NCBI GenBank assembly: GCA_903928915.1
Contig: CAIYSL010000129.1
Coordinates: forward strand, 1 to 37,519
Source of the DNA: an uncultured Syntrophobacterales bacterium
Lineage (GTDB): Bacteria > Desulfobacterota > Syntrophia > Syntrophales > UBA5619
Direction of reading: 5' to 3'
Length of the DNA: 37,519 bases
Of the stretch, positions 8,918 to 25,616 are shown piece after piece (position 1 is the stretch's first letter; the number at the start of each line of letters is the position of its first letter). Both the position numbers and the translations under genes were made by a program. The notes under the pieces were generated by a model, which was given only the letters and a program-made list of their open reading frames with translations, made no database searches and was not told the DNA's origin.

Positions 8918-9913
8918 CTACTTCAGCATCTCCGGCGGCAGCTTGGCCCCCTGTTCCTGCCAGTATTTGATCGCGCCGGGATGGAGCTTCAGCCCCATCT
9001 TGGCCACCGGCGTAAAGACCGGTCCTGCTTCTCCCCAGAGCACCATGACCTTCTTGAGCATCTCCTTGTTCTTCGGTTCCATGGTGATCTTCAGGGCGTC
9101 GTACACGGCCTGTTCGGGCATGCCCGCCTTGGCGACCCAGTACTGCCCCCAGAAGAAGGCCTTCCTCGGCTTGTCCGAATTCTCGCCCGGCTGGGTGTTC
9201 GGGGCGATCGCCTTCACGTACATGTAGGGCATCCCCTTTTCGATCTTGTCCTCTTCGGCCTGCGTCGGCTCGATCAGCCGGATCGGCGTGGACCGCGCCA
9301 GCTCGGTGAAGGAGGGGGTGAAGGGGCTCCCCGGCGCCAGGGCCACGTCGATGTGGCCGTCCTTGAGTCCCTGGGCCGCCCCCTCGGGGTTGAGGAAGCT
9401 CAGCTTCACCTTGTCCTCGATGCCCAGGGCCTTGAACATGCTCTTGGCGATCGAAGGCCCGATCCCGCCCGGGGCGCCGACGTTGATCTTCTTTCCCGCC
9501 AGGTCGCTGAAGCTCTTGATCGGCGATTTTGCCAGTGCAACCACGCAGACCGCCTGATCGCCCATGAAGACCATCACCCGCATGTCCTTGTAGGGGGTCT
9601 TGCCGTCGAACAGGCCTGTCCCGGTGGTGGCCTCCTGCATGATGTTGGTGTGGGCCCAGGTGGTGTCGAACTCGCCGCCGATCATGCGCCGGACGTTTTC
9701 CACCCCGCCGCCGGAAGCAGCAGCGGTGTAGAAGTACTTGTCCTTCATCTGCTCGTTGATCAACTGGACCGCTGCGCCCACGCCGATCCTCCAGAGGCCC
9801 CCCATGGGGCCGCTTCCCCAGACATACTTCTGGACCTCGGCGGCGCCCGCACCGGAGACGACGCAGAGCAGCAGAACTCCGACCCAAACCGCTGCAATCT
9901 TTCCTGTCTTCAT
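8918..9913 (-). CDS. TAXI-family TRAP transporter solute-binding receptor
   Basis: A 331-residue periplasmic receptor with a Sec signal peptide (MKTGKIAAVWVGVLLLCVV, cleavage near AGA-AEV). The mature protein has the TAXI hallmarks: WGSGPMGGLWRIGVG near the N-terminus, then ASGGGVENVRRM, a DLAGKKINVGAPGG segment, and a C-terminal LHPGAIKYWQEQGAKLP. It binds an organic acid in the periplasm and delivers it to the TRAP membrane protein encoded 44 bases upstream. A textbook AGGAGGT precedes the start. The last ~44 residues resemble the TAXI remnant at 26113-26247. TAXI ligands include glutamate and other carboxylates, but the ligand here cannot be read from sequence. Confidence 0.92.
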   Translation of the reverse strand: MKTGKIAAVWVGVLLLCVVSGAGAAEVQKYVWGSGPMGGLWRIGVGAAVQLINEQMKDKYFYTAAASGGGVENVRRMIGGEFDTTWAHTNIMQEATTGTGLFDGKTPYKDMRVMVFMGDQAVCVVALAKSPIKSFSDLAGKKINVGAPGGIGPSIAKSMFKALGIEDKVKLSFLNPEGAAQGLKDGHIDVALAPGSPFTPSFTELARSTPIRLIEPTQAEEDKIEKGMPYMYVKAIAPNTQPGENSDKPRKAFFWGQYWVAKAGMPEQAVYDALKITMEPKNKEMLKKVMVLWGEAGPVFTPVAKMGLKLHPGAIKYWQEQGAKLPPEMLK

Positions 9914-9957
9914 ACCTACCTCCTGTTGTTATGTGAGTGTTCGGTTTCGTTTCGCTC

Positions 9958-11883
9958 TCACGCGGCCGGCGCCTGCTTTGCCAGAGAGGCCTTCTGGATG
10001 ACGATCACCAGGGCAAGCAGGACGTAGCCGATCGCGTCGGTAATCAGCCCCTCGTGGAGCAGGAGCAGCGATGAGACGAAGAGCGCCCCCCGTTCGAAGA
10101 TGGTCGTCTTGCGGAACAGGTATCCCGTGAGCGCCCCGCCCCAGGAGACCAGGGCGAAGCAGGAGGCGATGACGGTGGTGATGAAGTCGAAGTTCCATCC
10201 TACCTTGAGGATCGACGTGTAGATGAACAAAAACGGCATCAGGTAGATCCAGGAGGCCAGTCGGCAGGCCTCCCAGCCGGTCTTCCAGGGATCGCTCTTG
10301 GCGATGGCCGAGGCGGCGATGGCGGCCAGGGCCACCGGCGGGGTGACGTTCGACTGGACCGCCACCCAGAGGGCGATCATGTGGGCCGTCAGCGGTTCGA
10401 CCCCCATCTTGACCATCGCCGGGACCCCGAGGATGACCAGGATGACGTAGGAGGGGGTCGTGGGCAGGCCCATCCCGACGAAGAGGCCGGATACGATGAC
10501 CAGCAGGACCAGCAGGAAGAGATGCCCCCCCGAGAGGTAGACGACGAACTGGGAGAAGTAGTTCGGCAGCCCCGTCAGGCTGCAGACCCCCATCACGATC
10601 CCCAGGACGCCGACGATCGACCCGACGGAAACGGCGCCCCGTGCCCCTTCGTACAGGGCCTCCACGATCTTCGCAGGTCCCATCCCCGTCTCTTTCCTGA
10701 GCCAGCTGACGGCGATCGTCAGGCCGATGGTGTAGAAGGCGGCGATGAAGGGGGTCATGTCGAAGGCCAGAAGGACGATCAGGATCGGGACGGGAAGGAG
10801 CAGATGAATCCTCCGGGCGACATCGCCGAACTTCGGGAGTTCCGAGGCGGGGAGCCCCTGCAGGTTCTGCTTGACCGCTTCGAGGCGGATGATGACCGCC
10901 ACCGAGGCGTAGTACAGGATCGCCGGGATCGCGGCGATCTTGATCACCGTGATGTAGGGGGTCCCCGAGATCTCCGCCAGCAGGAAGGCCGCGGCCCCCA
11001 TCACCGGCGGCATCAGCTGGCCGCCCGTCGACGTGGCGGCCTCCACGGCGCCGGCGAAATGGGGCTTGTAGCCCATCCGCTTCATCAGCGGGATCGTGTA
11101 GACGCCGTCCACGACCACGTTGGCCACGGCGCTGCCCGAGACGGTCCCGAACAGGGCGCTGGTGATGACCGAGGCCAGGGCCGGCCCGCCGGTCACCCGT
11201 CCGGTGATGGCGTAGGCCAGATCGACGAAGACCTTCCCGCACCCCGACACCTCCATGAAGGCCCCCAGGATGACGAAGATCAGGATGTAGGAGGCGAAGA
11301 TGTTGGTCATCGTCCCCAGGATCCCGTCCCCGGACAGGAACAGGCTCTCGGCGATCCGCTCCAGCGAAAACCCGGAATGGCCGAGCCCCAGCGGGAAATA
11401 GGGGCCGAAGTAGGCGTAGATCAGCAGAACGAGCCCGATCGACGGGATGATGTTCCCCACGGTACGGCGGGCCATCTCCAGCGACAGGAGGATGATCCCC
11501 CAGCCGAGGACCGCGTCGACCGTGCTGACCCCGCTCCCCATCCGCTCGGCCAGCGTGGGGAACTCGACGATGTAGTAGATGATGATCCCCGTCATGACGA
11601 GCATGTACAGGAAATCGAAGACGCTGGGCCTGCCCGCGGGGGAGCGGTGTCCGAACCTGAACAGGGCGAAGCTGATGACGAAGGTCCCCAGGAAGTAGAA
11701 TCCCACGTGGGTCTCCTGGGAGACGAGGCCGAAGAAGGTGGTGTACAGGAAATAGAGGCTGTACACGGCGGAGAAGACCTTCAGCGCGAGATCGAAACCC
11801 TTGTCCAGCTTGCGCTTCCCCCCCCCCTCGCCGAGGAGGCCCTCATCCTGCAGGTACTTGACGATGTTTCCGAAGATGCTCAT
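9958..11883 (-). CDS. TRAP transporter fused membrane protein (DctQM type)
   Basis: A 641-residue polytopic membrane protein. The N-terminal ~200 residues carry four to five helices corresponding to the small TRAP subunit. The rest is the large DctM-like subunit, with conserved stretches such as TGRVTGGPALASVITSALFG, SGSAVANVVVDG, GQLMPPVMGAAAF and LPTTPSYVILV. Fused QM subunits are the normal partners of TAXI receptors, and one follows directly. It drives secondary, ion-coupled uptake. The start at 11883 has GGGAGA seven bases upstream and follows a ~60-base leader from a strong promoter. A coding-strand G10 run (11818-11827) encodes Gly-Gly-Gly at about residues 20-22 and is a potential slippage point. 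Confidence 0.92.
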   Translation of the reverse strand: MSIFGNIVKYLQDEGLLGEGGGKRKLDKGFDLALKVFSAVYSLYFLYTTFFGLVSQETHVGFYFLGTFVISFALFRFGHRSPAGRPSVFDFLYMLVMTGIIIYYIVEFPTLAERMGSGVSTVDAVLGWGIILLSLEMARRTVGNIIPSIGLVLLIYAYFGPYFPLGLGHSGFSLERIAESLFLSGDGILGTMTNIFASYILIFVILGAFMEVSGCGKVFVDLAYAITGRVTGGPALASVITSALFGTVSGSAVANVVVDGVYTIPLMKRMGYKPHFAGAVEAATSTGGQLMPPVMGAAAFLLAEISGTPYITVIKIAAIPAILYYASVAVIIRLEAVKQNLQGLPASELPKFGDVARRIHLLLPVPILIVLLAFDMTPFIAAFYTIGLTIAVSWLRKETGMGPAKIVEALYEGARGAVSVGSIVGVLGIVMGVCSLTGLPNYFSQFVVYLSGGHLFLLVLLVIVSGLFVGMGLPTTPSYVILVILGVPAMVKMGVEPLTAHMIALWVAVQSNVTPPVALAAIAASAIAKSDPWKTGWEACRLASWIYLMPFLFIYTSILKVGWNFDFITTVIASCFALVSWGGALTGYLFRKTTIFERGALFVSSLLLLHEGLITDAIGYVLLALVIVIQKASLAKQAPAA

Positions 11884-12049: not shown

Positions 12050-13066
12050 TCATATTTTGCAGACGCCGTTGTCGAGCACGACCTTCCCGTCGAAGGCGAT
12101 CGTCGCGTCCCGGTACATGGCGTCGATGTGGTTGGGCGCCAGCACCTTGCCGCCGATGGCGAAGTTGCTGCCGATCCCGGCGTGGCAGTTCCCCAGGCGG
12201 CCCAGGTCCTCGAGGTTGGTCGCCGCCAGGCGCGCCTTGGGGTTCAGACCGATGCCGAACTCGGCGTAGTTGTACGCCTTCTCGTCATTGAGCGCGGCCA
12301 GGATCGTGCGCAGCTTCGCCGCGGCCATGCCCCCCTGGATGTCGGCCACTTTCCCGGCCTTGACGATGATGGTCACGTGGTCGTAGATCGTGACCCCCAC
12401 GCTCATGATGCTCACATCGCTGACGATCGTCCCCTCGGCCGTCCCCTCGAGCGGCGAGATGTTGATCTCGCTATCGGGAAAGGCGGCGAACTGGCCTGGT
12501 TTCCGAAACAGCCCGGTCTCGTACTGGACGGGCCTTCCTGCCACCTGGCCGCGGATGTCGGTGCCCAGCGGCGTGGTGATGCGGACTTCGCTCGACTGGG
12601 CAAGGGCCGCCCCGAGCTTCCGGCCGAGCCGGTCGCACTCCTCGTAGTCGGCCTCGATCGCGCCCACGCAGAGCGCGTCCTCGGTCACCTCGCACATGGT
12701 GCAGCCCCGCTTGCCCGCCTTGATCGCCTCCACCCGGGCCTTGGTGTGGGTCTGCGACCAGGTGGAGGGCTGAAAGAAGACATCGGCCTCGCGGAAGGCT
12801 GCGACGATCGGTTCGGGAAGCTGGCCCCCGTGGACCCCCACCGGCGGGATCATGATGATGATCGGGGTCGCCCCGGTGGCATAGGCGGCGCCCCCCAGGG
12901 CCTCGGCGATCCGCAGCTTGTTCGTATCGGTGGAGATCAGGACCGTCTCCCCCTCCTTCACTCCGCCGCACTGCATGGCCTTCATTGCGCCCTTCATCAT
13001 CTGCATCGGGCTCGACGGCCCGGGCATATAGTGCCAGTACGATACGGACCACTCCTTTGTACTCAT
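12050..13066 (-). CDS. M29 aminopeptidase / NicX-like metalloenzyme
   Basis: A 338-residue soluble protein resembling the thermophilic aminopeptidase (M29, AmpS) family, which also includes the Fe(II) enzyme NicX (2,5-dihydroxypyridine 5,6-dioxygenase). Family-like features include GVKEGETVLISTDTNK near residue 35, the stretch NYAEFGIGLNPKA around 265-277, GNCHAGIGSN around 293-302, and the ending RDATIAFDGKVVLDNG. I cannot tell from the sequence whether it is a peptidase or a ring-cleaving or hydrolytic enzyme. Its place after flavin and tungsten enzymes argues for a catabolic reaction rather than protein turnover. An AAAGGAGAT site precedes the ATG at 13066. It is the last gene of the redox cluster, flanked on both sides by palindromic repeats. 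Confidence 0.65.
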   Translation of the reverse strand: MSTKEWSVSYWHYMPGPSSPMQMMKGAMKAMQCGGVKEGETVLISTDTNKLRIAEALGGAAYATGATPIIIMIPPVGVHGGQLPEPIVAAFREADVFFQPSTWSQTHTKARVEAIKAGKRGCTMCEVTEDALCVGAIEADYEECDRLGRKLGAALAQSSEVRITTPLGTDIRGQVAGRPVQYETGLFRKPGQFAAFPDSEINISPLEGTAEGTIVSDVSIMSVGVTIYDHVTIIVKAGKVADIQGGMAAAKLRTILAALNDEKAYNYAEFGIGLNPKARLAATNLEDLGRLGNCHAGIGSNFAIGGKVLAPNHIDAMYRDATIAFDGKVVLDNGVCKI

Positions 13067-13241: not shown

Positions 13242-15197
13242 TCACACCCGGCTCCCCGCCAGGAACCCCTCCCGGACGGAATCCATGATCCGGCGGGGCT
13301 TGACGCAATCCCCTGCCATTTCCACCGTGACGCCCGCGGCGGCGAGCTGTTCGCCCAGCCCGGTCTCGGGTTTCGCCCCGACGGAGAAAACCACCGTCTG
13401 CGCGTCGATCCGCAGCTCCTGGCCGGCCCGCTGGACGACCGCCTGCGGCCCCTCGACCCGTACCAGGGTCACCCCCGTGTGAACGGCGACCCCCTTTTCG
13501 CGGAAGCGGATGTCGAAGTAGGCCTTGGTGTCCTTGTCCGCATCGCCGGCGATCGCGGGGAGGAGCTCGACCAGCGTCACCTTCTCCTCCGCCTCGCTCA
13601 GGAAATCCGCGGTTTCGCATCCCACCAGCCCGGCCCCGACCACGAGGAAGGGGCCCTCCCCGATCGCTCGCCCGGCCAGGACGTCCCAGGCGGTCAGCGC
13701 CCGCTCCGCGGCAAGCCCGGGCACGGCGAAGGTGAAGGGCCGCGCGCCCGTGGCCAGGATGACCGCGTCGGGCCTGAGGCTCAGGATGCGGGCGGGCGAG
13801 ATCTCTTCGTTCAGGAACACCTTCACCCCGCTGCGCGCGAGGCGTCCCGCCAAGTAGTCCGTGAGCAGGAAGATGTCCTTTCGTCCCGGCGGCACGGCCG
13901 CCAGGAGCAGCTGCCCGCCCACGCGGCTCCCCCGGTCGATCAGGGTGACGTCATGGCCCCGTTCGCGGGCGGCGCAGGCCGCAACCATCCCCGCGGGTCC
14001 TGCGCCGACGACCACGATCCGCTTCGCCGTGCCGGCCTTGGCCGCGGCCGGATCGGCCTCCCACCCCAGGTGCGGGTTGACGGAGCAGCAGATGTCGAGC
14101 TGCCCGAGGATCCGTTTGTAGCACCCCTCGTTGCAGGCGATGCAGGGCCGGGTTTCGGACTCGCGTCCCTCAAGGGCCTTGTTCGGGAGGTCGGGGTCGG
14201 CCAGGAGCGCGCGTCCGATCGCCGCGATGTCCGCTCTGCCCTGGGAGAGGATCTCCTCGGCGAGCGCCGCCGTGTTGATCCGGCCCACGGCCACGATCGG
14301 GACGCGCAGCGCCTTCTTGAACTCGGCGGCGATCGGGACCAGGCAGCCCGGCTCGGTCATCATCGGGAGGGTCCGCATCACCTTGTGGGCCTCGCTCAGG
14401 TCCTCGAACTTCTGGCCGCCCGGGGTTCCGGCCGACACGATCAGGCCGTCGATGCCCGCCTCCTCGGCGAGCTTCGCGATCTCGATCATCGCCGGGATCC
14501 CCAGCCCCCCCTCGATGTACTCGTCCCCGCTGATCTTGATCGTGAGCGGAAAATCACCCAGCCTGGCGCGGATTCCCCGGACGATCTCGGTCAGGAAGCG
14601 GGTCCGGCCGGCCAGGTCCCCGCCGTACTCGTCGGTCCTGAGGTTGGTCAGCGGCGAGAAGAAGGAGGGGACGAGGTACCCGTGGGCGCAGTGGATGTCC
14701 ACGCCGTCGAACCCCGCCTCCCTGGCCCGGCATGCCGCTGCGACGTGCGCCTCGACGAGGCCGGCGATCTCGGCGCGGGTCAGCGCCCGCGGCATCTCTG
14801 CCCCGGGGTAGGCCGGGACCGCGGACGGCGCCACGGGCTGCATGCCCGAGACCTTCGACGAGACCCGGCCGCCGGCGTGATGGATCTGGAGAAAGATCCG
14901 CGCGTCGTTGTTCAGGCCGTGGACCGCGGCGGTCAGCCCTTTGAGTCCCGCGACGTGTCCCTCCGAGGCGATGCCGAGCTGCCGCACGTACCCCTTCCCC
15001 TCGGGGGTGAAGTAGGTCCCCTCCACGAAAATCAGGCCGACCCCGCCCTTGGCCCGTTCGGTGTAGTAGGCGATCAGCCGGTCGGTGACGTGCCCCTCCT
15101 CGGTGGCGAAGTTCATGGTCATCTGCGACATGGCCAGCCGGTTCTTGAGCGTGACCCTCCCGAGCCGGCAGGGCTGAAAAACCGTGGGATACTGCAT
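13242..15197 (-). CDS. Fe-S flavoenzyme of the 2-enoate / 2,4-dienoyl-CoA reductase type (OYE + FAD domains)
   Basis: A 651-residue multidomain enzyme. Residues 1-~340 form the Old Yellow Enzyme barrel that binds FMN, with the substrate pair His169/His172 in HCAHGYL and the SPLTNLRTDEYGG signature. Cys352, Cys355, Cys359 and Cys371 (CIACNEGC...CS) form the usual 4Fe-4S site. Residues ~392-650 form an FAD/NAD(P) domain with GAGPAG (398-403) and a second GAGLVG. The family reduces activated C=C bonds of enoates, cinnamates or dienoyl-CoAs with NAD(P)H, or runs demethylation and dehydrogenation. The length is normal. It follows the FAD oxidoreductase by 20 bases in the same operon and would saturate an unsaturated acid derived from the imported substrate. 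Exact substrate unknown. Confidence 0.9.
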   Translation of the reverse strand: MQYPTVFQPCRLGRVTLKNRLAMSQMTMNFATEEGHVTDRLIAYYTERAKGGVGLIFVEGTYFTPEGKGYVRQLGIASEGHVAGLKGLTAAVHGLNNDARIFLQIHHAGGRVSSKVSGMQPVAPSAVPAYPGAEMPRALTRAEIAGLVEAHVAAACRAREAGFDGVDIHCAHGYLVPSFFSPLTNLRTDEYGGDLAGRTRFLTEIVRGIRARLGDFPLTIKISGDEYIEGGLGIPAMIEIAKLAEEAGIDGLIVSAGTPGGQKFEDLSEAHKVMRTLPMMTEPGCLVPIAAEFKKALRVPIVAVGRINTAALAEEILSQGRADIAAIGRALLADPDLPNKALEGRESETRPCIACNEGCYKRILGQLDICCSVNPHLGWEADPAAAKAGTAKRIVVVGAGPAGMVAACAARERGHDVTLIDRGSRVGGQLLLAAVPPGRKDIFLLTDYLAGRLARSGVKVFLNEEISPARILSLRPDAVILATGARPFTFAVPGLAAERALTAWDVLAGRAIGEGPFLVVGAGLVGCETADFLSEAEEKVTLVELLPAIAGDADKDTKAYFDIRFREKGVAVHTGVTLVRVEGPQAVVQRAGQELRIDAQTVVFSVGAKPETGLGEQLAAAGVTVEMAGDCVKPRRIMDSVREGFLAGSRV

Positions 15198-15217: not shown

Positions 15218-16492
15218 TTATTCCCAGAGGGAACCGTGGCTGTACCCCCGGTTCGGCGGCAGGCCGGACAGGGCATGACGGTTCCGGCTGAACAGCTCAG
15301 CGGGGTCGGCGATCCGATCCCGCCGCCGCATCCTGCTGAGCAGGAGCCCCGCCCGGGAGGCGTCGCCGATCAGCAGAAACCCGATCAGCTCCCCGGCCTT
15401 GAGGACCGCTTTCCGGTATCCTTCCGGCCCCTCCTCCTGGTACACGGCGATCTCCTCGCCCGCCTGGTCGTAGGGGTGCCCGGCGGAGGCCACCTGCAGG
15501 CCGTGGAGGTTCATGGCGTTCAGGCTGAAGTTGTGGACGTACCGGCGTTGCCCCCCGGCCATGTTCGCCCCCGCCACCGCCCCCTGCCGGGTCGCGGCGG
15601 GCCAGACGGCGTTGTTGAAGGATGCCCCGGTGAGCGAGTCGACCGTTGCGGCCGCGTCGCCGGCGGCGTACACGCCCGGGAGGGCGGTCTCCATCCGGTC
15701 GTTCACCGGGATCCCCCCGCGGGTCGTTTTGCCCACTGCGCCGAGCGCGGCGTCGAGCAGCGCCGTGTTCGGCCGCACGCCCACCGCGGCGACGAGGACC
15801 TGGGCGGGAACGCTCCTGCCGTCCTCCAGCCGCACCCCCGCCACCCACCCCTCCGCCGCCTCGACCTCCCGGACCCCCGTGCCGGTCTCCACCATGATCC
15901 CGTGGGCCCGCAGGTGCGCCTTGACGATGTCCGATCCCCGCTGATCGAAGATCCGCGAGGCCAGGCGCGGCTCCTTTTCGAACACCGCGCATTCGATGCC
16001 CCGCTCCTGCAGGTGGCAGGCCAGCTTGATCCCGATGAACCCTCCTCCCATCAGGGCGACCCGCCCGCCCCCCGGCCGGCAGGTCAGGATCCCCTGCGCG
16101 TCGGCGAAACTCCGGAAGGGGTAGACCCCTTTGCTCGCGATCCCGGGGATCGGCGGGATGACGGGGAGTGCCCCGGTGGCGACGAGCAGCCGGTCGTACT
16201 GCACTGCCTCGCCGCAGGAAAGCGACACCACGTGCCGCTCCGGGTCGATGGCCGTTGCCCGCCTGCCGCAACGCAGCTCCAGCCGCTGCTGTTCTCCCCA
16301 GGAGTCCCTCTCCCGGAACAGGAGCCGTTCCTCCGGGTACCGGCCCGACGCCCAGTAGCTGAGCATGACCGGGGAGAGGGCGGGGCGCGCCTCGGCCGCA
16401 ACCAGGGTGATCGTGCCGGCGGGGTCCGCCTTCCTGATCGCCTCGACCGCCGAAATACCGGCGGGTCCGCCGCCCACGACGACGTATCTCAT
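15218..16492 (-). CDS. NAD(P)/FAD-dependent oxidoreductase (AorC / CooS-operon FNOR-like)
   Basis: A 424-residue two-dinucleotide-domain flavoprotein. It has the FAD motif GGGPAG (7-12), ATGALP (105-110), the NAD(P) motif GGGFIG (149-154) and VYAAGDAA near residue 280. It lacks the redox-active CxxC of thioredoxin-reductase relatives and has no Fe-S motif, placing it with NirB/rubredoxin-reductase-like proteins that pass electrons between NAD(P)H and a partner Fe-S protein. Such genes occur both beside AORs (AorC) and in CooF-CooS-FNOR operons. Its ATG overlaps the stop of the CooS-like gene by 4 bases (ATGA, 16489-16492), so the two are translationally coupled and probably form a complex. 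A longer in-frame ORF across the CooS-like gene is a shadow. Confidence 0.88.
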   Translation of the reverse strand: MRYVVVGGGPAGISAVEAIRKADPAGTITLVAAEARPALSPVMLSYWASGRYPEERLLFRERDSWGEQQRLELRCGRRATAIDPERHVVSLSCGEAVQYDRLLVATGALPVIPPIPGIASKGVYPFRSFADAQGILTCRPGGGRVALMGGGFIGIKLACHLQERGIECAVFEKEPRLASRIFDQRGSDIVKAHLRAHGIMVETGTGVREVEAAEGWVAGVRLEDGRSVPAQVLVAAVGVRPNTALLDAALGAVGKTTRGGIPVNDRMETALPGVYAAGDAAATVDSLTGASFNNAVWPAATRQGAVAGANMAGGQRRYVHNFSLNAMNLHGLQVASAGHPYDQAGEEIAVYQEEGPEGYRKAVLKAGELIGFLLIGDASRAGLLLSRMRRRDRIADPAELFSRNRHALSGLPPNRGYSHGSLWE

Positions 16493-17364
16493 GGCCTCAG
16501 GCTCCTGAGGACGGTCAGCCGGACCTCCTCCTCCGGAGACGCGGCCAGCAGGCCGTGCCCGAAGGCCTCTTTCATCCCTCCGGTCAGGTACCCCTCGACC
16601 CGGCGGCTCCCCCGGATGGGGTAGCCGGGGATCGGCAGCAGCGAAAACCCCATGCCGAGCGCGCCCAGGCCGGGGACCGCCGACGGGGATGCGACTACCG
16701 CGGTGCTGCGGGTGAAGGCCAGCGGGGTCCCCCACGCTGCGTACACCGCCCGGCCGAAGGCGGCGAGGCCGCCTGGCGCCAGGCGGAAGGTCCGGGCCGT
16801 TTCCGCGCAGGCCGCTTCGATCCCCTTCAGCAGCGCCTCCCGGGAGGGATCGGCCGCTTCGCCTTCCTCCGCCACGACGACCAGCAGGGGGGCAGGGGTC
16901 GTCGGCAGGGCGATCTCCGGACCGCCCGGGTCCTGCGCGAGTTCTCCGGCGGCGAGGGCGAATGCCGAAAGGCTGAGCGCCTCCGCCAGGAGCGCCTCGG
17001 GTTTGCGCTGCCCGGCCGGGCCGCCCGCGGCCGCCTCCACGAGCGCGGCCATCCAGGTCCCGCGGGGCATGCCCAGGCTGTGGAGGGTGGGGAAGGCCGC
17101 GGCAGGGGAGAGGCGGGCCTGCACCGCCTCCGGGTCCCCTTCGCCCTTCTGTCTGCGGCCGGCCATCCGCCGCAGGCTCTCGACCAGGACCCGCTCCCGG
17201 AGGTTGTGGGCTACGATCCAGTCGCCGCCGGCCCCGCAGGCGCCGGCGGCGGTCTCTCCGTCGAAGGGGCTCAGACGGCAGGGTCCGCTGAGACAGGAGG
17301 CGCAGCAGAGCCCCAGCAAGCCGTAACCGCACCCCGCGAGGTCGTTTCCTTTCCGTTCAGCCAT
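16489..17364 (-). CDS. Miniature CO-dehydrogenase-like protein (CooS B/D-cluster module without C-cluster)
   Basis: A 291-residue protein, less than half the usual ~630 of CooS. Its cysteines at 12, 20, 21, 24, 29 and 43 reproduce the CooS spacing exactly: D-cluster C-x7-C, then B-cluster C-x2-C-x4-C-x13-C. GLLGLCCASCLSGPCR and GACGAGGDWIVAHNL are clear CooS wording. LGMPRGTWMAALVEA (98-112) resembles the helical-domain PRGIDREVVE segment. The C-terminus (PIPGYPIRGSRRVEGYLTGG, then MKEAFG, 245-269) resembles the CooS end. Only one other Cys (186) exists and no C-cluster ligands are visible, so CO oxidation is not expected. I infer an electron-transfer subunit, perhaps a dimer bridged by a D-type cluster, linking the CooF-like ferredoxin (8-base overlap) to the FAD oxidoreductase (4-base overlap). 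Confidence 0.8.
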   Translation of the reverse strand: MAERKGNDLAGCGYGLLGLCCASCLSGPCRLSPFDGETAAGACGAGGDWIVAHNLRERVLVESLRRMAGRRQKGEGDPEAVQARLSPAAAFPTLHSLGMPRGTWMAALVEAAAGGPAGQRKPEALLAEALSLSAFALAAGELAQDPGGPEIALPTTPAPLLVVVAEEGEAADPSREALLKGIEAACAETARTFRLAPGGLAAFGRAVYAAWGTPLAFTRSTAVVASPSAVPGLGALGMGFSLLPIPGYPIRGSRRVEGYLTGGMKEAFGHGLLAASPEEEVRLTVLRSLRP

Positions 17365-17854
17365 GCGCGCCCCCTCCGATCATCTCCCGGGCAAAGGCCC
17401 GTTTCCGCTCACCCTCCCCCTCCCCGTCGCTCAGGGCCAGGGCGCCGGAGAGGCATGCCGCGACGCAGCGCGGGACCGCGTCGTCGGGACAGAGGTTGCA
17501 CTTCGTCATGCATTCGTCCGTTCCGTCCGGCGCGACCGCACCGAAGGGGCAGACGAGCCGGCAGCTTCCGCACCCCACGCAGGTATCGGGCCGGTGACGG
17601 ACGGCGCCCGTGACCCCGTCCCGGACGATGCTCCCGCTGATGCAGGCCTCCGCGCAGGGGGGGTGGGTGCAGTGGCGGCAGCGGACCGGCCAGGGGGTCC
17701 CCGCGGCGAGGGTCATCGCGAGCCGCCGCGGCGGTCGCGACTCCGCTGCGAGCTCGCGCGGGTCATCGATCCCCAGCGCCTCGAGCCCGCAGGCCAGCAC
17801 GCAGGAGTGGCACAGCAGACAGCGTTCCGGTCGAAAGAGGAGGCGGCGTTTCAT
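17357..17854 (-). CDS. CooF-like ferredoxin with four 4Fe-4S sites
   Basis: A 165-residue polyferredoxin. The cysteine groups are 12/15/18/22, 59/62/67/71 (CRHCTHPPCAEAC), 92/95/98/102 (CVGCGSCRLVCP) and 119/122/130/134, with one extra Cys at 115. This is the four-cluster layout of the CooF/HycB/DmsB class, electron carriers that dock on a catalytic subunit. Its ATG overlaps the AOR-1 stop (ATGA, 17851-17854), and its end overlaps the CooS-like start by 8 bases. In CO-dehydrogenase operons CooF also directly precedes CooS. It likely relays electrons between AOR-1 and the CooS-like protein. A much longer ORF in this frame crosses AOR-1 and is spurious. Confidence 0.88.
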   Translation of the reverse strand: MKRRLLFRPERCLLCHSCVLACGLEALGIDDPRELAAESRPPRRLAMTLAAGTPWPVRCRHCTHPPCAEACISGSIVRDGVTGAVRHRPDTCVGCGSCRLVCPFGAVAPDGTDECMTKCNLCPDDAVPRCVAACLSGALALSDGEGEGERKRAFAREMIGGGAHG

Positions 17855-19749
17855 GACCCGATCCCCTCGAGCCCCAGCTCCCGGAGTTTCTCCGGCGTGG
17901 GACAGCCGGTGGACCTGTCCCACCCCCGGGCCGCGTAGTAATCGTCCAGGAGCAGCTCGTAGTCGCCGCGGTCGAGATGGCCGCCCGCGCCCGGACCGTC
18001 GGGGAGCGCCTCGTCGAAGAACCGCGCCGGTGGCCGGTCCTCCGCGCGGCCGAACCCCTCCCGGCAGTTGAACAGTTTCTCCAGGTTGTACACCCGCTCG
18101 CCGCACGCGAGCAGCTCCTCCTGGGTGACCGGCAGCCCCGTGGCCGCCCGGTACGCCTCGGTCACCAGCTCCAGCCCCCGCCTGATCAGCATCGAGAAGG
18201 TGCGCGACCGGTACCAGGCGAAGATGCACAGCCCCATCAGGTTCGCCACGGTGATCCAGTTTTCGCTCCAGGCGACCAGCTTCCCCTTGCCCTCCCGGGC
18301 CTTGACGTCGCTCACCGCGGCGGTGTCGAAGTACTTCAGCCCCTCCTCGGGGGTGATGAATTCGTCGATGTAGGGGAACCCCCGGAGGTGGCAGGAGCCG
18401 CGCGTGGCCACGCCGAAGGTGAGGGCGCGGGTCACCATGCTCCGCGGGTCGCTGGCATCGACCTCCTGCCCCTTGATGTGGATGGCGTAGTACCCGGCGT
18501 TCAGGCGCTGCCCCATGACCCGCGTCCCTTCGGCGAGCAGGTCGCCGAACCCCTGGCGGTGGACGATCTTCTCGATCAGCCGCAGGAACGCCTCGCCGTT
18601 TCCGAACGCGAGCTCCTCGCCGTCGGTGTCCTCCTTCTTCAGGATCCCCCGCTCGGTGAGCTCCATGGCCATGCTGATCGCCGAGGCCGCGCCGTGCTCG
18701 TCGATTCCGTATTCGTCGCAGAGGTAGTGCGCCTGGAGGATGAAGTCGGGGTCGATGATGTAGGGCTTGGCGCCCAGGGCGTTGATCGTCTCGTACTCGG
18801 GGCCTTTCATGTACCGGAGGCCGCCGCTGCCGTCGGCGATGGCGGAATAGCGGCGGCAGCGCACCATGCACCCCATGCACCCCATCGCCTTCACCAGGTA
18901 CTTCTCCCGGAACACCTCGCCGCTGATCTTCTCCCACTCGGGGATCGTCGCCTGCTGGAAGTTCCGGGCGCCCCAGATCCCCAGCTTCTGGCGGTGGGCC
19001 ACGAGATTGGGGGTGCCCAGCCGGCGCAAGGTCTCGGTCCAGACCTCCCCTTCGATCGTCTTGCGGTAGGCGTCGATTGCCTCCTTGAACCGTTCGGGGT
19101 CGGCGATCTTCACGTCCTGGGAGCCGCGCACGACCACGGCCTTGAGGTTCTTCGACCCCATCACGGCGCCCATCCCGGTCCTGGCGCCGACCCCCTCTTC
19201 GTCCGTGACGATGCAGGCGTACCGGACCAGGTTCTCCCCGCCCGGGCCGATGGCGCAGATGTGAATGTCCTCGTCGCCGATCTCCGCTTTGAGCGCCTCG
19301 GAGGTGGCGTGGATCCGTTTCCCCCAGATGTGCTCGGCCGGCCGCAGCTCGGCCTTGCCGTCGCAGACCCAGAGGTAGACCGGTTTCGGGGACCTGCCCG
19401 TGACCACGATGGCGTCGAACCCGGCGTACTTCATCTCCGGCGCCCAGTACCCACCCGAGCTGGCGTCGCCGATCCCCCCGGTCATCGGGGACTTGGCAGA
19501 GACGATCAGCCGGCTGGCCGACGGGAGCGGAGTCCCGCTCAAGGGGCCTGCGGCGAACACGATGATGTTGCCCGGCGCGAGGGGATCGGTCCCCGGCCGG
19601 AGCCCTTCGGCGAGGATCCGGGCGCTGAACCCCCGGCCCCCGATGTACTTCAGGGCGAACTCCCGCTCCAGGGGCTTGGCCCGGAGCGTCCCGCCCGTCA
19701 GGTCTACGTACAGCAGCTTTCCCGCATATCCGCCTGGTAACATCCCCAT
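17851..19749 (-). CDS. Aldehyde:ferredoxin oxidoreductase family protein (AOR-1)
   Basis: A 632-residue tungsten-bispterin enzyme of the AOR family, normal in length. Cys291, Cys294, Cys298 (GCMGCMVRC) and Cys508 (MGLCIF) match the four ligands of the 4Fe-4S cluster next to the pterins. GPEYET (316-321) and the first pterin loop DEYGID (345-350, consensus DxxGLD) are conserved. The second loop reads NLMGLC (503-508), with Asn where DxxGLC has Asp. Early family segments VDLTGG and GGRGFSARIL are typical. It oxidises an aldehyde to an acid with ferredoxin, or runs the reverse acid reduction. Other members (for example BamB) act on different substrates, so the substrate is open. It lies between two polyferredoxins, 3 bases after one and overlapping the other by 4. 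Confidence 0.92.
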   Translation of the reverse strand: MGMLPGGYAGKLLYVDLTGGTLRAKPLEREFALKYIGGRGFSARILAEGLRPGTDPLAPGNIIVFAAGPLSGTPLPSASRLIVSAKSPMTGGIGDASSGGYWAPEMKYAGFDAIVVTGRSPKPVYLWVCDGKAELRPAEHIWGKRIHATSEALKAEIGDEDIHICAIGPGGENLVRYACIVTDEEGVGARTGMGAVMGSKNLKAVVVRGSQDVKIADPERFKEAIDAYRKTIEGEVWTETLRRLGTPNLVAHRQKLGIWGARNFQQATIPEWEKISGEVFREKYLVKAMGCMGCMVRCRRYSAIADGSGGLRYMKGPEYETINALGAKPYIIDPDFILQAHYLCDEYGIDEHGAASAISMAMELTERGILKKEDTDGEELAFGNGEAFLRLIEKIVHRQGFGDLLAEGTRVMGQRLNAGYYAIHIKGQEVDASDPRSMVTRALTFGVATRGSCHLRGFPYIDEFITPEEGLKYFDTAAVSDVKAREGKGKLVAWSENWITVANLMGLCIFAWYRSRTFSMLIRRGLELVTEAYRAATGLPVTQEELLACGERVYNLEKLFNCREGFGRAEDRPPARFFDEALPDGPGAGGHLDRGDYELLLDDYYAARGWDRSTGCPTPEKLRELGLEGIGS

Positions 19750-19752
19750 CGA

Positions 19753-20295
19753 TCAACCTCTTCCCGTCTTTGTTTCCGTTTGTCGCTTTCGTTCCTCTTC
19801 CGCCGGCGGTTCTCCCACACTGACCAGCGAGCGGGCGAAGCTCCGCATCTTCCTGCGGGAAACGACCTCCGCATCGGTCAGCCTGAGCACCCGGGCGGGG
19901 CAGTAGGCCACGCACTGGGGGTCCCCCCCGCAGAGGTCGCACTTGGACGCGGTCCCCTCCACCGGGTCGAGGGTGACGGCGCCGGCCGGGCAGACGCTCA
20001 CGCACATGGAGCAGCCGATGCAGACGTCGCCCGCGCAGAGGACCATCCCATCCGGTTCGGCGCGGTGCAGGGCGCCCGTCGGGCAGATGTTCATGCAGGG
20101 GGCGTCGGCGCAGTTCAGACACGCGACCGGGATGTCCGCCCCCTTGCCGAGCGAGACGATCTTGATTCTCGCCCGCCGGGGGTTGCCGACCTTATGGTGA
20201 TGGAAGGCGCAGATCAGCTCGCACATCCGGCAGCGGCTGCACTGCGCCTCCGGGTCCTCGCGGTTCTCGAAATATCCGACACGTTGCTTGGTCAT
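19753..20295 (-). CDS. Polyferredoxin (AorA/BamC/CooF-like), four 4Fe-4S sites
   Basis: A 180-residue ferredoxin-type protein with cysteine groups at 19/22/25/29, 59/62/67/71 (CLNCADAPCMNIC), 92/95/98/102 (CIGCSMCVSVCP) and 119/122/128/132. It sits between AOR-2 (7 bases upstream) and AOR-1 (3 bases downstream), so it may serve either enzyme as electron acceptor. Proteins of this type accompany tungsten AORs (AorA) and class II benzoyl-CoA reductase (BamC). The C-terminal ~30 residues are charged (EEERKRQTETKTGRG) and probably flexible. The start at 20295 has GAGGAGA a few bases upstream. No signal peptide or membrane helix is seen, so it is cytoplasmic. Confidence 0.88.
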   Translation of the reverse strand: MTKQRVGYFENREDPEAQCSRCRMCELICAFHHHKVGNPRRARIKIVSLGKGADIPVACLNCADAPCMNICPTGALHRAEPDGMVLCAGDVCIGCSMCVSVCPAGAVTLDPVEGTASKCDLCGGDPQCVAYCPARVLRLTDAEVVSRRKMRSFARSLVSVGEPPAEEERKRQTETKTGRG

Positions 20296-20302
20296 CTTCT
20301 CC

Positions 20303-22153
20303 TCACAGGTTCAGCTCTTTCAGTTTGGCGGCGCTGGGACGGCCCGTGGTCCGGTCCCAGTCGCGCACCGCATAGTACTCCGCGAGCATCGGCTCCAGGT
20401 CCACGACCCGGCCTGCGCTCGGTCCGTCGGCCAAGGGCTCGTGGAGGGCCCGCCAGGGGAGGGTGTCGTCGGCCGGGGTGAGCCCTTCCCGCAGGTTGAA
20501 CAGCCGCTCCAGGTTGACCTTCCGCTCCCCGACCCGCATCAGCTCCTCTTTCGTCCATTCCCGCCCGGTGACGGCCCGGAGGATGCCCACCTGGTTCCTG
20601 GTCAGCCCCAGCTTCTGGCGGGTCACGGTCTTGCACATCTCCAGGCAGTCGGCGATGGCGCGGATGTGCTCGGAGTAGGCGACCCCTCTGCCCTTTCCCG
20701 CCGTGCTGAACCGGTCCGTCATCGTCTCGGGGAGCCCCGCCTCCTCGCGGGTCTCCTCGGGGATGTCGCCGAACTCCCAGGAGGCGTAGGCGCGCATGTG
20801 GTCGGCGCCCCGGGCGGAGACGGCATACCCCAGGGCCCATCCCTGGTAGGCCCGGGGGTCGACGGTGGAGATCTCCAGCCCCTTGACGTGGTAGGCGAAC
20901 CGGTCGCTTTCGTGGCCGAATTGCTCGGCCATTCGCTTCACCCCCTGGCCGAGGATCCGCCCGATCCCCTCGTCGTTGGCGATCATGTCGATCAGCCGGA
21001 GGATCACGTCGCCTGCGCCCCACTTCAGCTCCAGCCCGCCCGTGTCCTTTGCGGTGATGATCCCCTTCTGCCAGCACTCCATGGCGAAGGCGATGGAGAC
21101 CCCCACCGAGATCTCGTCGAGGCTGTGCTTGTCGCAGAGGTTGTGGGCGACCAGGACCACCTCGGGGTCGGCGTTCCCGACCCGGGTGCCGAAGCACTGC
21201 ACCGTGGAATTCTCGATCGCCTCGGTCCACTCGCCCGCGAATGGGCCCTCCTTGATCAGGTACTTGCGCCAGCAGGGCAGGGGGCAGCAGCCGCAGGCGC
21301 TGGATCCGACGCTGTAGCGGTCTTTATAGTTGTCCCCCTCGATGGTGTCGAACTTGTCGAACACCCCGCGCTGCCAGTTGTAGGCCCCCACCCCTCCCAT
21401 CTTCTGGTACAGGGTCGTCCCCTTGGGGGAGCCGATGTTCCGGTACCGGGCGTAGTGGTACTCGCCCGTCAGCATCTCGATCAGCCGCTTCGCTTCGCTC
21501 AGCAGCGTTTCGGGGTCGGCGATCTTGACCCCCCCGTGTCCCCGGACCGCGACGGCCTTGAGGTTCTTCGACCCCATCACCGCCCCGGTGCCGCCCCTGC
21601 CGCCGGCGTGGACCTTCTCCCCGATCACGCAGGTGAGGGGGACGAGGTTCTCCCCGGCCCGGCCGATGCAGGCCACCCGCAGGTCGGGATCGCCGCTGCG
21701 GTCCTGGAGGATCGCCTCGGTCTCCCAGGTGTCCTTGCCCCAGAGGTCGGCGGCCGGGAGGATCTCGACCCTGCCGTCCCGCACCAGGAGATAGCAGGGC
21801 TTTGCCGCTTTACCCGTGATGGCCAGGGCGTCGAACCCCGCCCATTTGAGCTCCGCCCCCCAGAGCCCCCCGGCGTTCCCCGACACGATGCAGCCGGTGG
21901 CGGGGGATTTTGCCCCCACCATCCAGCGGTTCGACGAGGGGACCAGGGTGCCGTTGACCGGCCCGTTGGCGAACACCAGGACATTGTCGGGTCCCAGCGG
22001 ATCGGCCCCGGCGGGGATCAGGTCGTACAGGAGCCGGGTGAGGAATCCGATCCCCCCCAGGTACTCCCGGATCAGCCCCTCGCCGGGCTCCTCGTAGGCG
22101 ACCCTGCCGTTCGTGAGATCGACGATCGCGATCCTTCCCGCATACCCGTACAT
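20303..22153 (-). CDS. Divergent AOR-family tungsten oxidoreductase (AOR-2)
   Basis: A 616-residue AOR-family protein starting at MYGYAGRIAIVDLTNG; a longer frame adds 12 non-homologous residues. The cluster ligands are present: Cys287, Cys290, Cys294 (CGCCPLPC) and Cys507 (DCLEMC). GTGAVMGSKNLKAVAVRG is the family pterin segment. Yet key loops differ from classical AORs: DKHSLD (341-346) replaces DxxGLD, DCLEMC (502-507) replaces DxxGLC, and no GPEYE motif is found where AOR-1 has one. The family includes enzymes that do not oxidise free aldehydes (such as BamB), so AOR-2 may act on another substrate or in the reductive direction. It is 7 bases from the small Fe-S gene upstream and 7 from the ferredoxin downstream, so all three are cotranscribed. 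Confidence 0.88.
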   Translation of the reverse strand: MYGYAGRIAIVDLTNGRVAYEEPGEGLIREYLGGIGFLTRLLYDLIPAGADPLGPDNVLVFANGPVNGTLVPSSNRWMVGAKSPATGCIVSGNAGGLWGAELKWAGFDALAITGKAAKPCYLLVRDGRVEILPAADLWGKDTWETEAILQDRSGDPDLRVACIGRAGENLVPLTCVIGEKVHAGGRGGTGAVMGSKNLKAVAVRGHGGVKIADPETLLSEAKRLIEMLTGEYHYARYRNIGSPKGTTLYQKMGGVGAYNWQRGVFDKFDTIEGDNYKDRYSVGSSACGCCPLPCWRKYLIKEGPFAGEWTEAIENSTVQCFGTRVGNADPEVVLVAHNLCDKHSLDEISVGVSIAFAMECWQKGIITAKDTGGLELKWGAGDVILRLIDMIANDEGIGRILGQGVKRMAEQFGHESDRFAYHVKGLEISTVDPRAYQGWALGYAVSARGADHMRAYASWEFGDIPEETREEAGLPETMTDRFSTAGKGRGVAYSEHIRAIADCLEMCKTVTRQKLGLTRNQVGILRAVTGREWTKEELMRVGERKVNLERLFNLREGLTPADDTLPWRALHEPLADGPSAGRVVDLEPMLAEYYAVRDWDRTTGRPSAAKLKELNL

Positions 22154-22160
22154 GGCCCTG

Positions 22161-22487
22161 TCACCCTTTCTCCCGCGGTTGCGCGGCATCCCCGAACAGC
22201 GGCGCGGGGTACCATTTCTTCTCGGTCAGCATCCGCGTCGCCTCGGCACGGGGGACGAACTTGAGCGCCTTCTGGTTGCAGACCTCCAGGCACCGCTCCT
22301 GGCCGTCGGGGCAGTCGCAGCCCATCGACAGCGTCACCGTCGGGGTGCTGAGGTAGGGGTGGAGCCGGACCCTGATCAGGGAATCGTCCCGGCGACAGAG
22401 TCCCTTCTGGATCAGCGAGCAGGCCATCTCGCACAGCAGGCAGCCGCTGCAGTGCTCCGTGTCGAAAAATAGGATGTTCGCTTTCAT
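22161..22487 (-). CDS. Small Fe-S (ferredoxin-like) protein
   Basis: A 108-residue protein. Cys13/16/19/23 (CSGCLLCEMAC) form a complete 4Fe-4S motif. Cys57/59/66/70 (CDC...CLEVC) may complete a second site with non-standard C-x-C-x6-C-x3-C spacing. The N-terminus MKANILFFDTEHC resembles the short ferredoxin subunits next to AOR-family genes. The start at 22487 has GGGAGA upstream; the longer ORF is rejected because its extra N-terminus is shadow sequence of the cupin gene. It ends 7 bases before AOR-2, so it is likely that enzyme's dedicated electron-transfer partner. Confidence 0.8.
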   Translation of the reverse strand: MKANILFFDTEHCSGCLLCEMACSLIQKGLCRRDDSLIRVRLHPYLSTPTVTLSMGCDCPDGQERCLEVCNQKALKFVPRAEATRMLTEKKWYPAPLFGDAAQPREKG

Positions 22488-23008: not shown

Positions 23009-23989
23009 TCACTTCGCCCCTTCTTTGATCAGCTGCCGGTAGATGCCGGCGACCATCGCCGACTCCGCCACCATGTGCTTCGCCAGCCCCTCGCCGCTCA
23101 AGTACTGGACCTCGTCGCCCGGACCTTCGATCATGTCGATAAAGGTCTTGTTCTCGCAAACCTTCTTCACCACATCCCGGAGCTTGTCCACGATGGGCTT
23201 CGGGGTCTTCGCCGGGGCCAGCAGTCCCACCCAGGCGTAGTATTCGGCATTGACGCCCAGCTCCTTGGCTGTGGGGACATCGGGCGCCGATTTCAGCCGC
23301 CGGGCGCTGACCACGGCCAGGGCCTTGATCTTACCGCCTCTGATCAGGGGAAGGGCCGTAGGCGGCGAGGGGAAATTGAAGTCCACGTGCTTGCTCACGA
23401 CGGCCGTCAGGGCGGGGCCTCCCCCCCCGGACGGGACATGGCGGAACTTCATTCCCGAGGCCTTCTCGAAAATGATCCCCGGCAGATGACTCATCCCGTA
23501 GAGGCCGCCGGAGCTGTACGCCAGCTGGCCGGGCCGGGCCTTGGCATCGGCGAGAAAATCGGCCAGGTTCTTGTAGGGTGCGGCCGCGTTCACGACGATG
23601 AACATCGGGCTCATGGTGAACGCTCCGAGGGGCACGAAGTCGCTGTAGGAAAATGCGGGCTTGCGGCCGTTGGCGATTTCCCATTCCAGCGGATTGGGGA
23701 TGTTGACCGACCCCACGGTCAGCGTGTACCCGTCGGGTGCCGCCTGAGCGCCTGCGGTCGCGCCGATCATACCCGTGGCGCCGGGTTTGTTGACCACGAC
23801 CACGGGCTGGCCGAGGATCTTGTCGGCCACGGCGGCGAAGGCCCGGGCCTGGATGTCCAGGGAGCCGCCCGGCGGCATGGGGTTGATCAGGGTGATGGGT
23901 TTGGTCGGGTAATCAGCGGCAAACGAACCGCCCGCCGCGCCCAGCGACAGGGCTGCCAGGACGCACAGAAACAGCATTGCCTTTTTCAT
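23009..23989 (-). CDS. tctC: Tripartite tricarboxylate transporter receptor (TctC/Bug family), set 1
   Basis: A 326-residue periplasmic binding protein. The start at 23989 (MKKAMLFLCVLAALSL) gives a clean signal peptide cleaved at about AADYP, with GAGGAGAGGAT just upstream. A start 17 codons earlier would bury the signal. Family features are DYPTKPITLINPMPPGG, ILGQPVVVVNKPGATG, GGLYGMSHLPG and a C-terminal YLSGEGLAKHMVAES. It captures a carboxylate in the periplasm for the TctA/TctB pair encoded directly upstream. It is a paralog of the receptor at 33585-34571 (shared PGGxxxxxARAFAxVAxKxLGQPVVVxNKxGA), so the two transporters may recognise related acids. Confidence 0.92.
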   Translation of the reverse strand: MKKAMLFLCVLAALSLGAAGGSFAADYPTKPITLINPMPPGGSLDIQARAFAAVADKILGQPVVVVNKPGATGMIGATAGAQAAPDGYTLTVGSVNIPNPLEWEIANGRKPAFSYSDFVPLGAFTMSPMFIVVNAAAPYKNLADFLADAKARPGQLAYSSGGLYGMSHLPGIIFEKASGMKFRHVPSGGGGPALTAVVSKHVDFNFPSPPTALPLIRGGKIKALAVVSARRLKSAPDVPTAKELGVNAEYYAWVGLLAPAKTPKPIVDKLRDVVKKVCENKTFIDMIEGPGDEVQYLSGEGLAKHMVAESAMVAGIYRQLIKEGAK

Positions 23990-24061
23990 ACGGAATCCTC
24001 TCCTCCTCAGTGAATTGTCGTGCATGGTTTGTTGGTTCATGGATCTCCTCCGTCGGTTTCT

Positions 24062-25570
24062 CTACTCTTCCTCGAGCGCCTTCTCCCAGGCCTTCTGGGG
24101 TCTCACGGACCTGTAGACATTCCAGAGGAGCAACAGGAACGACAGCACCAGCAGCGTGAGGGCGATGGGACTGTCGAGAAAGATCACAAAAGAACCGCCG
24201 CTCCGCATCAGTGACCAGCGAAAGGCGTTTTCGAGGCTCGGCCCGATGATCATGGCCAGAATGAAGGGCGCGATATCGAATTCGAGCCTGCGGAACGTAT
24301 ACCCCAGAACCCCCGCGGCCAGGAGGATCAGCAGTTCGACGGCGCTCGAATTGACCGAATAGGTTCCCACCAGACAGACCAGCAGGATCAGCGGAAACAG
24401 GATGCGGAACGGGACCCTGAGCAGATTGACGAACACGCCGACCATCGGCAGATTGAGGATGATCAGGATCACGTTCCCGATGTACATGCTGGCGATCAGG
24501 CTCCAGAACACCTGGGGCTGCTCAGAGATGAACAGCGGACCCGGCCGGATGCCGTGGATCAGAAGCGCGACCATCATCACCGCCGTGGCCGGTCCCGTGG
24601 GGATGCCCAGCCCCAGAAAGGGGATCATGGCGCTTTGCGAGGCCGCGTTGTTGGCGGTCTCCGGTCCGGCGACGCCTTCGATGCGGCCGGTCCCGAATTC
24701 TTCCGGCCGTTTCGCGAGCCGTTTTTCCAGCGTGTAACTGGCAAAGCTCGACAGGACATGGGCTGATCCCGGCAGAAGGCCGATGAAGAACCCGATGCCG
24801 GTCCCGCGGAAGATAGGCCCCCATGCGGCCTGCAGTTCTTTCCGGGTGGGCAGGAGCTCCCGAAGTCTGACATTCTGGATGGTGCGCACGAGGCTCCCTT
24901 CGGTGGAGGAGAGGATCTCCCCGATCCCGAAGGCCCCCATCGCGATGGGGATGAAGCCGATGCCGTCGTACAGGTCTTTGATGTTGTGGGTGAACCGCAT
25001 GGCCCCGGTGAGAGGATCCATCCCGACCGTGCCGATCAGCAGGCCCAGGAGGATCATCGGAACGGTCTTGAAAAAGGAGCCCTTGCCCAGGGAACCCAGG
25101 AGCATGAAGGCGATGAGCAGCACGGCGAACATCTCCGGCGGTCCGAACTTCACCGCGAAATTTGCCAGGACCGGGGCCAGAAACATCAGCCCTGCTATTC
25201 CCAGGGTGCCGCCGATCCAGGAACCCCAGGCGGCGATGAACAGGGCCGCGCCGCCGCGGCCTTTCTGGGCCATCTGATAGCCGTCGAGGCAGGTGATCAC
25301 GGAGGCCGACTCTCCCGGGATGTTCATCAGGATCGATGTGGTCGATCCGCCGTACATGGCCCCGTAGTAGATCCCGGAGAGCATGATGATGGCCCCGGTC
25401 GCATCCATCCCGAAGGTGGCCGGGATGAGAAGCGCGATTCCCGCCAGGGGGCCGATGCCGGGCAGAACCCCGACCATCGTCCCCCAGAGACAGCCGATAA
25501 AACAGAGATAGAGGTTCTTGAGACTCAGCGCGATGCGAAACCCGTCCAGCAGATTGTTGAAAAGGTCCAT
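24062..25570 (-). CDS. tctA: Tripartite tricarboxylate transporter large permease (TctA family), set 1
   Basis: A 502-residue polytopic membrane protein with about 10-12 helices. Signature stretches are VGVLPGIGPLAGIALLIP, GAMYGGSTTSILMNIPGE, and GPETANNAASQSAMIPFLGL with IPTGPATAVMM. It forms the ion-coupled translocation pathway of the Tct system with the small TctB protein 46 bases upstream. It is strikingly similar along its whole length to the plus-strand TctA at 30751-32265, indicating duplication. The start has AAGGAA eight bases upstream. Confidence 0.95.
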   Translation of the reverse strand: MDLFNNLLDGFRIALSLKNLYLCFIGCLWGTMVGVLPGIGPLAGIALLIPATFGMDATGAIIMLSGIYYGAMYGGSTTSILMNIPGESASVITCLDGYQMAQKGRGGAALFIAAWGSWIGGTLGIAGLMFLAPVLANFAVKFGPPEMFAVLLIAFMLLGSLGKGSFFKTVPMILLGLLIGTVGMDPLTGAMRFTHNIKDLYDGIGFIPIAMGAFGIGEILSSTEGSLVRTIQNVRLRELLPTRKELQAAWGPIFRGTGIGFFIGLLPGSAHVLSSFASYTLEKRLAKRPEEFGTGRIEGVAGPETANNAASQSAMIPFLGLGIPTGPATAVMMVALLIHGIRPGPLFISEQPQVFWSLIASMYIGNVILIILNLPMVGVFVNLLRVPFRILFPLILLVCLVGTYSVNSSAVELLILLAAGVLGYTFRRLEFDIAPFILAMIIGPSLENAFRWSLMRSGGSFVIFLDSPIALTLLVLSFLLLLWNVYRSVRPQKAWEKALEEE

Positions 25571-25616
25571 GGAAATTCCTTAACGCTCCCTCTGTGAAAA
25601 CTCATTCACCCCAAGG

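Follow-up and report, generated by a model that had tools for sequence, protein, structure and literature searches.

What is the role of a protein of only 291 residues that carries the N-terminal cysteine signature of the nickel carbon monoxide dehydrogenase CooS (Ni-CODH) and is encoded between an iron-sulfur (FeS) protein and a flavin adenine dinucleotide (FAD) protein? The question is raised by a gene on the minus strand (16489-17364) of contig CAIYSL010000129.1 of an uncultured Syntrophobacterales bacterium (assembly GCA_903928915.1), of which the whole 37,519-nucleotide stretch analysed here is called the window. We named its CODH-derived product micro-CooS. As judged from sequence and predicted structure, and with a probability of about 0.6, we propose that micro-CooS is a CooS without its catalytic middle that an AorABC-like (class III) tungsten oxidoreductase has taken on as an additional subunit for electron transfer. 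The open reading frame is uninterrupted from its ATG start to its TGA stop, overlaps the upstream FeS gene by 8 bases and shares an ATGA overlap with the downstream FAD gene. These features match a preliminary description of the locus, which reported an intact frame overlapping both neighbours and an enzyme of some 630 residues reduced to 291 with a single cysteine besides six N-terminal ones; this seventh cysteine is Cys186. The protein and its two recognisable parts are located as follows.

16489..17364, minus strand: micro-CooS, a CODH-derived protein of 291 residues without the C-cluster
17236..17331, minus strand: motif of the D-cluster (C12, C20) and the B-cluster (C21, C24, C29, C43), in register with CODH-II and with the same cysteines in relatives
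16492..16893, minus strand: Rossmann-like C-terminal part, residues 158-291, corresponding to about the last 150 residues of CooS by hhalign, secondary structure and structural match

The relationship to CODH is clearest at the N-terminus. A phmmer search against the PDB matched 36 sequences, all of them CODHs (best 8.9e-11), and residues 11-61 of micro-CooS aligned without gaps to residues 38-88 of CODH-II from C. hydrogenoformans. In this register C12 and C20 fall on C39 and C47, giving the type II D-cluster pair (C-x7-C-C), and C21, C24, C29 and C43 fall on C48, C51, C56 and C70, giving the four B-cluster cysteines; we take the former pair to be the D-cluster ligands of CODH-II and the latter four to be its B-cluster ligands. 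The match to TIGR01702 (3.1e-11) was confined to residues 8-60 and reached 42 bits, where the cut-off is 478, and single-sequence matches, to Ni-CODHs and more weakly to the prismane/CODH Pfam family, involved the first 60 residues only. The same six cysteines are found in every relative that covers this region and are the only invariant cysteines of the family, including two members added later. The D- and B-cluster spacing claimed earlier was thus recovered exactly.

The catalytic centre, by contrast with these kept ligands, is missing. Beyond the six, the family alignment contained no conserved cysteine, each member having 1-5 stray ones. The region of the C-cluster ligands (His261 and Cys295, 333, 446, 476 and 526) is deleted or changed and the ligand motifs are absent; the HSDH motif of the acid-base His93 was absent in all members tested, an arginine (residue 66) standing opposite it in micro-CooS, and the EKA motif (Lys563) was absent at the aligned C-terminal position in the members tested. 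Sequence comparison makes it certain in our judgement that the nickel C-cluster has been lost, as the preliminary description had maintained; micro-CooS cannot hold this cluster and cannot oxidise CO. No conserved cysteine that could serve as a hybrid-cluster ligand occurs in the C-terminal half, and the prismane Pfam model matched residues 19-61 only (21.5 bits, under its cut-off of 27). Instead of the three-domain fold of about 630 residues there are 291 residues in which the middle is absent and the remaining parts match CODH. Micro-CooS derives from Ni-CODH and yet is not a Ni-CODH, since defining features of that enzyme are lacking.

To which parts of CooS the remainder corresponds was addressed with profile alignments and structure prediction. 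In an hhalign comparison of a profile of seven micro-CooS members with one of 28 full-length CooS sequences, the two families matched with a probability of 99.9% (E 7.8e-30), and residues 1-75 alone gave a score of 154 (E 8.5e-25). Residues 222-291 aligned to CooS positions 561-623 of 646 with a score of 35.2, whereas none of 100 column shuffles exceeded 20.4, which bears out the resemblance to the CooS C-terminus noted previously. The helical segment 80-150 aligned collinearly with CooS 169-247, at a score of 20.1 that is about the best shuffle of another segment; considering this weakness, it was counted only through its collinearity and the structural comparison. The better of two AlphaFold2 models, for which short CODH fragments were supplied as alignment rows at residues 1-64 and 250-289, had a mean predicted local distance difference test score (pLDDT) of 75 and a predicted template modelling score of 0.76. 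Compared with the PDB, it matched CODH best (VIA Z 20.5; 266 of 291 residues at 3.4 Å), and all 50 entries listed were CODHs. A control model built from four rows, none of them CODH, was poor overall (pLDDT 48); for its better half CODHs were again at the top (Z 11.5, residues 105-291 on CODH 172-627), and unrelated Rossmann folds trailed at Z 9.3 and below. The CooS fold sought by this comparison was thus found with both models. Past residue 158, the predicted strands and helices follow one another as they do towards the end of the C-terminal domain in CooS. Alignments and models together give good support to the view that micro-CooS consists of the N-terminal helical domain of CooS joined to the last Rossmann part of its C-terminal domain, and equally that about 240 middle residues have been removed.

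Searches with the family model, which covered the Desulfobacterota (other phyla were scanned only with a limited pattern), identified members in ten genomes of five families (f1, f28, f40, f92 and f112): the window's own (G000), Syntrophus sp. SW.007 (G006, locus L020), a lake Pavin metagenome-assembled genome (G014, L021), G370 (L022), G233, G317, G274, G496 (partial), G535 and G537. Their lengths range from 291 to about 367 residues. The distribution is patchy, with 3 of 21 genomes positive in the window's own family. Close relatives, inspected for a full-length CooS, turned out to be equally short and to have the same neighbours, and a lone deletion was rejected, given short intact frames beside the same genes in nine more genomes. 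That the gene is not decaying, as first supposed, agrees with these frames, the invariant cysteines and the conserved operon. Between the closest members the ratio of nonsynonymous to synonymous substitution rates (dN/dS) was 0.34-0.44, below 1 and higher than that of the downstream FAD gene (0.21). In-frame TGA codons seen in G233 and in two matches to the large subunit described below proved to be ordinary stops, the matches overrunning the ends of intact genes.

The decisive context, which the preliminary description did not recognise, is a tungsten aldehyde oxidoreductase (AOR) cassette of the AorABC type. Where contigs are long enough to judge it, the order is FeSb (AorA), AORa (AorB), FeSa (CooF-like), micro-CooS, FNOR (AorC) and an enzyme of the old yellow enzyme (OYE) type. 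In the window the genes are the following.

19753..20295, minus strand: FeSb, an AorA/WorS-type FeS subunit with four clusters (8c0z_C, 2.3e-29)
17851..19749, minus strand: AORa, a large subunit of the tungsten AOR family (AorB/WorL; Pfam AFOR_N and AFOR_C; PDB 9mqx, 1aor and 8c0z_A)
17357..17854, minus strand: FeSa, a CooF/AorA-like 4Fe-4S polyferredoxin (best PDB match AorA, 8c0z_C, 1e-15), translationally coupled to micro-CooS
15218..16492, minus strand: FNOR, an AorC/WorN-type FAD/NAD(P) subunit (best PDB match AorC, 8c0z_E, 1.3e-51)
13242..15197, minus strand: OYE-type enoate reductase with flavin mononucleotide, FeS and FAD (FadH/BaiCD-like), 3' of FNOR and conserved in the cassettes
12050..13066, minus strand: M29-peptidase-like protein, at the end of five cassettes

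FeSa lies immediately upstream of micro-CooS in all ten genomes (10/10), usually overlapping it, and FeSb is 66-82% identical across cassettes. Orthologs of AORa (at least 69% identity) occur in 5 of 395 genomes of the phylum, and micro-CooS accompanies every one of them (5/5). A WorL-type subunit with both AFOR_N and AFOR_C and adjacent WorS-type FeSb and WorN-type FNOR make the system a probable member of class III of the tungsten oxidoreductases (WOR). AORa, FeSb and FNOR correspond to AorB, AorA and AorC, respectively, of the class III enzyme (WorLSN) AorABC from Aromatoleum aromaticum (8c0z), and a MoaD-like gene, found upstream in six cassettes, adds to the likeness. In that enzyme an AorAB filament is capped by the FAD subunit and electrons pass from tungsten through FeS clusters to FAD (PMC10413684, PMC6365974). 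Unlike AorABC, the cassette inserts a CooF-like FeS protein and a CODH-derived subunit, and AORa, which keeps Thr243, Glu313, His448 and the cluster cysteines (Pf numbering), has Ser in place of Tyr427; owing to this replacement its substrate may be unusual. Other cassette AORs, relatives being inspected by eye, have Ser or Thr where aldehyde-oxidising AORs have Tyr427, and they too keep the other active-site residues considered.

The neighbourhood also resembles that of genuine CODHs. The CODH D-cluster passes electrons to CooF-like proteins (PMC6344411). Gene clusters of the type CooF-CooS-FNOR are known as well, and we observed the same FeS-CooS-FNOR order around real CODHs or mini-CooS proteins of this phylum (L016, L017, L095 and L098); in contrast to such clusters, the cassette has a remnant without C-cluster in place of the catalytic CooS, and the catalyst is the AOR. 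Compared with Ni-CODH CooS (CODH-II, 1su6; CODH-IV, 6elq), micro-CooS shares the cysteine spacing, the helical domain, the last Rossmann part and the CooF and FNOR neighbours frequent there; it differs in its length (291-367 residues against about 630, with the deficit in the middle and C-terminal domains), in the missing C-cluster ligands, His93 and Lys563, and in its tie to a tungsten AOR.

Taken with the operon, the kept B- and D-cluster ligands make electron transfer by micro-CooS likely. In the simplest reading the CODH remnant would add one more relay to the chain, placed between FeSa and FNOR: micro-CooS would bind its clusters and dimerise, its solvent-facing D-cluster would offer FeSa a docking site as in CODH, and the B-cluster would hand electrons onward. 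Electrons could then move between the tungsten site of AORa and the FAD of FNOR by way of FeSb, FeSa and the clusters of micro-CooS, in this presumed order, and FNOR would exchange them to or from NAD(P). Of the earlier proposal that a CODH had become a pure electron-transfer subunit, the conversion into a non-catalytic subunit is supported, the C-cluster being lost, and its electron-transfer part is the likely function argued for here. A bolder and on balance doubtful elaboration is that a homodimer of dismantled CODH uses its B-D-B clusters to unite a pair of AOR-FeS arms with a pair of FAD subunits in a single electron junction, possibly coupling or splitting electrons between NAD(P) and an OYE partner, which would make the complex a distinct class of multi-subunit tungsten oxidoreductase.

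Several observations speak against the recruitment of micro-CooS as an electron-transfer subunit. It is the least conserved protein of the cassette (44-49% identity, against 81-84% for AORa and 64-66% for FNOR), a divergence that would be no less natural in a scaffold than in a relay. The Aromatoleum AorABC needs no subunit of this kind. A tree of FNOR sequences does not tie those of the cassette to CODH-associated FNORs; they form a separate clade, and the tree favours neither a CODH-operon nor an AOR-operon origin. In the better model the pLDDT of the cluster loop is low (30-50), and the match of that model to CODH at its two ends is partly circular because CODH fragments served as alignment rows there.

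The divergence of micro-CooS relative to its neighbours is also what a structural adaptor would lead one to expect, that is, a protein that keeps FeSa attached to FNOR, or uses the D-cluster to make the complex a dimer, and takes no part in electron flow during turnover. The interface between the two halves of a CODH dimer would lend itself to such a task; nevertheless, a scaffold would need at most the D-cluster pair, and every member that has the region retains the full set of four B-cluster ligands, and we regard this explanation as unlikely, if still a serious competitor. Less probable again is a redox sensor, or a factor that assembles or protects the tungsten enzyme, whose exposed clusters would sense redox state or oxygen without acting as a relay. 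The solvent-exposed D-cluster of CODH is redox-labile and some class III AORs work without such a subunit, but the gene is strictly placed between those of the FeS and FAD subunits with overlapping frames, and searches of domain libraries revealed no DNA-binding or maturation domain in micro-CooS. A decaying CODH relic, for which the dN/dS in excess of that of FNOR could be cited, is very improbable and already contradicted: nine other genomes, in five families, have the frame intact, the cysteines do not vary and the operon is conserved. Finally, a mini-CooS still acting on CO (reportedly the clade G Ni-CODHs of Techtmann 2012) shares the shortened CooS form, the N-terminal motif and the CooF and FNOR neighbours, and this identity was rejected with next to no doubt, since micro-CooS lacks the ligand motifs of the C-cluster as well as His93 and Lys563, mini-CooS is described with a complete metal-cluster motif (PMC8776680) and the mini-CooS candidates of the same phylum have at least 482 residues.

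If the recruitment of micro-CooS into the tungsten enzyme is correct, a CODH scaffold minus its active site would have been retained as wiring inside another metalloenzyme, a case comparable in principle to NuoG of complex I, which is molybdoenzyme-derived. A CODH scaffold that does no CO chemistry has a precedent in CooS-V (CODH-V, 7b7q), as mentioned in a survey citing Jeoung 2022 (PMC13240472), although CooS-V, unlike micro-CooS, retains the complete fold together with a hybrid cluster. In the open-access literature searched we found no description of a C-cluster-less CODH subunit like micro-CooS, and the main text of a 2026 classification of tungsten oxidoreductases names neither CODH nor CooS (PMC13328260). 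The silence is explained by the filtering of CODH surveys by length and motif, sequences being dropped when their C-cluster is altered or their length is below 550 or 400 residues (PMC6344411, PMC8776680, PMC13240472); by removing them, Ni-CODH surveys hide a conserved family. For specialists in CODH and in tungsten enzymes, micro-CooS would offer a natural protein with B- and D-clusters only, and thereby a means of studying how CODH transfers electrons when no catalytic C-cluster is present.

Other genes deserve mention. Cysteine-rich CooS proteins of 482-510 residues in the order FeS-CooS-FNOR (L016, 3875-7113; L017, 2245-5482) are likely mini-CooS and represent an intermediate size class. 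The window's own genome also encodes, on another contig (L009, 3944-4601; G000:C96), a 219-residue N-terminal half of CooS that reaches the contig end and is not CooS-like past about residue 175, owing to either the assembly end or a fusion. A second AOR-family large subunit, AORb (window 20303-22189, minus strand), lies directly upstream of the cassette; an upstream AOR fragment is also present in L085, and none is shown in the other cassettes examined. The M29-like protein is 83-92% identical in L012, L020, L022 and L083, which exceeds the conservation of micro-CooS. The operon is flanked by genes for TctCBA/TctC tripartite tricarboxylate and TRAP/TAXI-type transporters (23009-26072, 33585-34571 and 8918-11883), accompanied by SDR, MmgE/PrpD, URO-D and GntR genes, and the whole looks like an organic-acid utilisation island.
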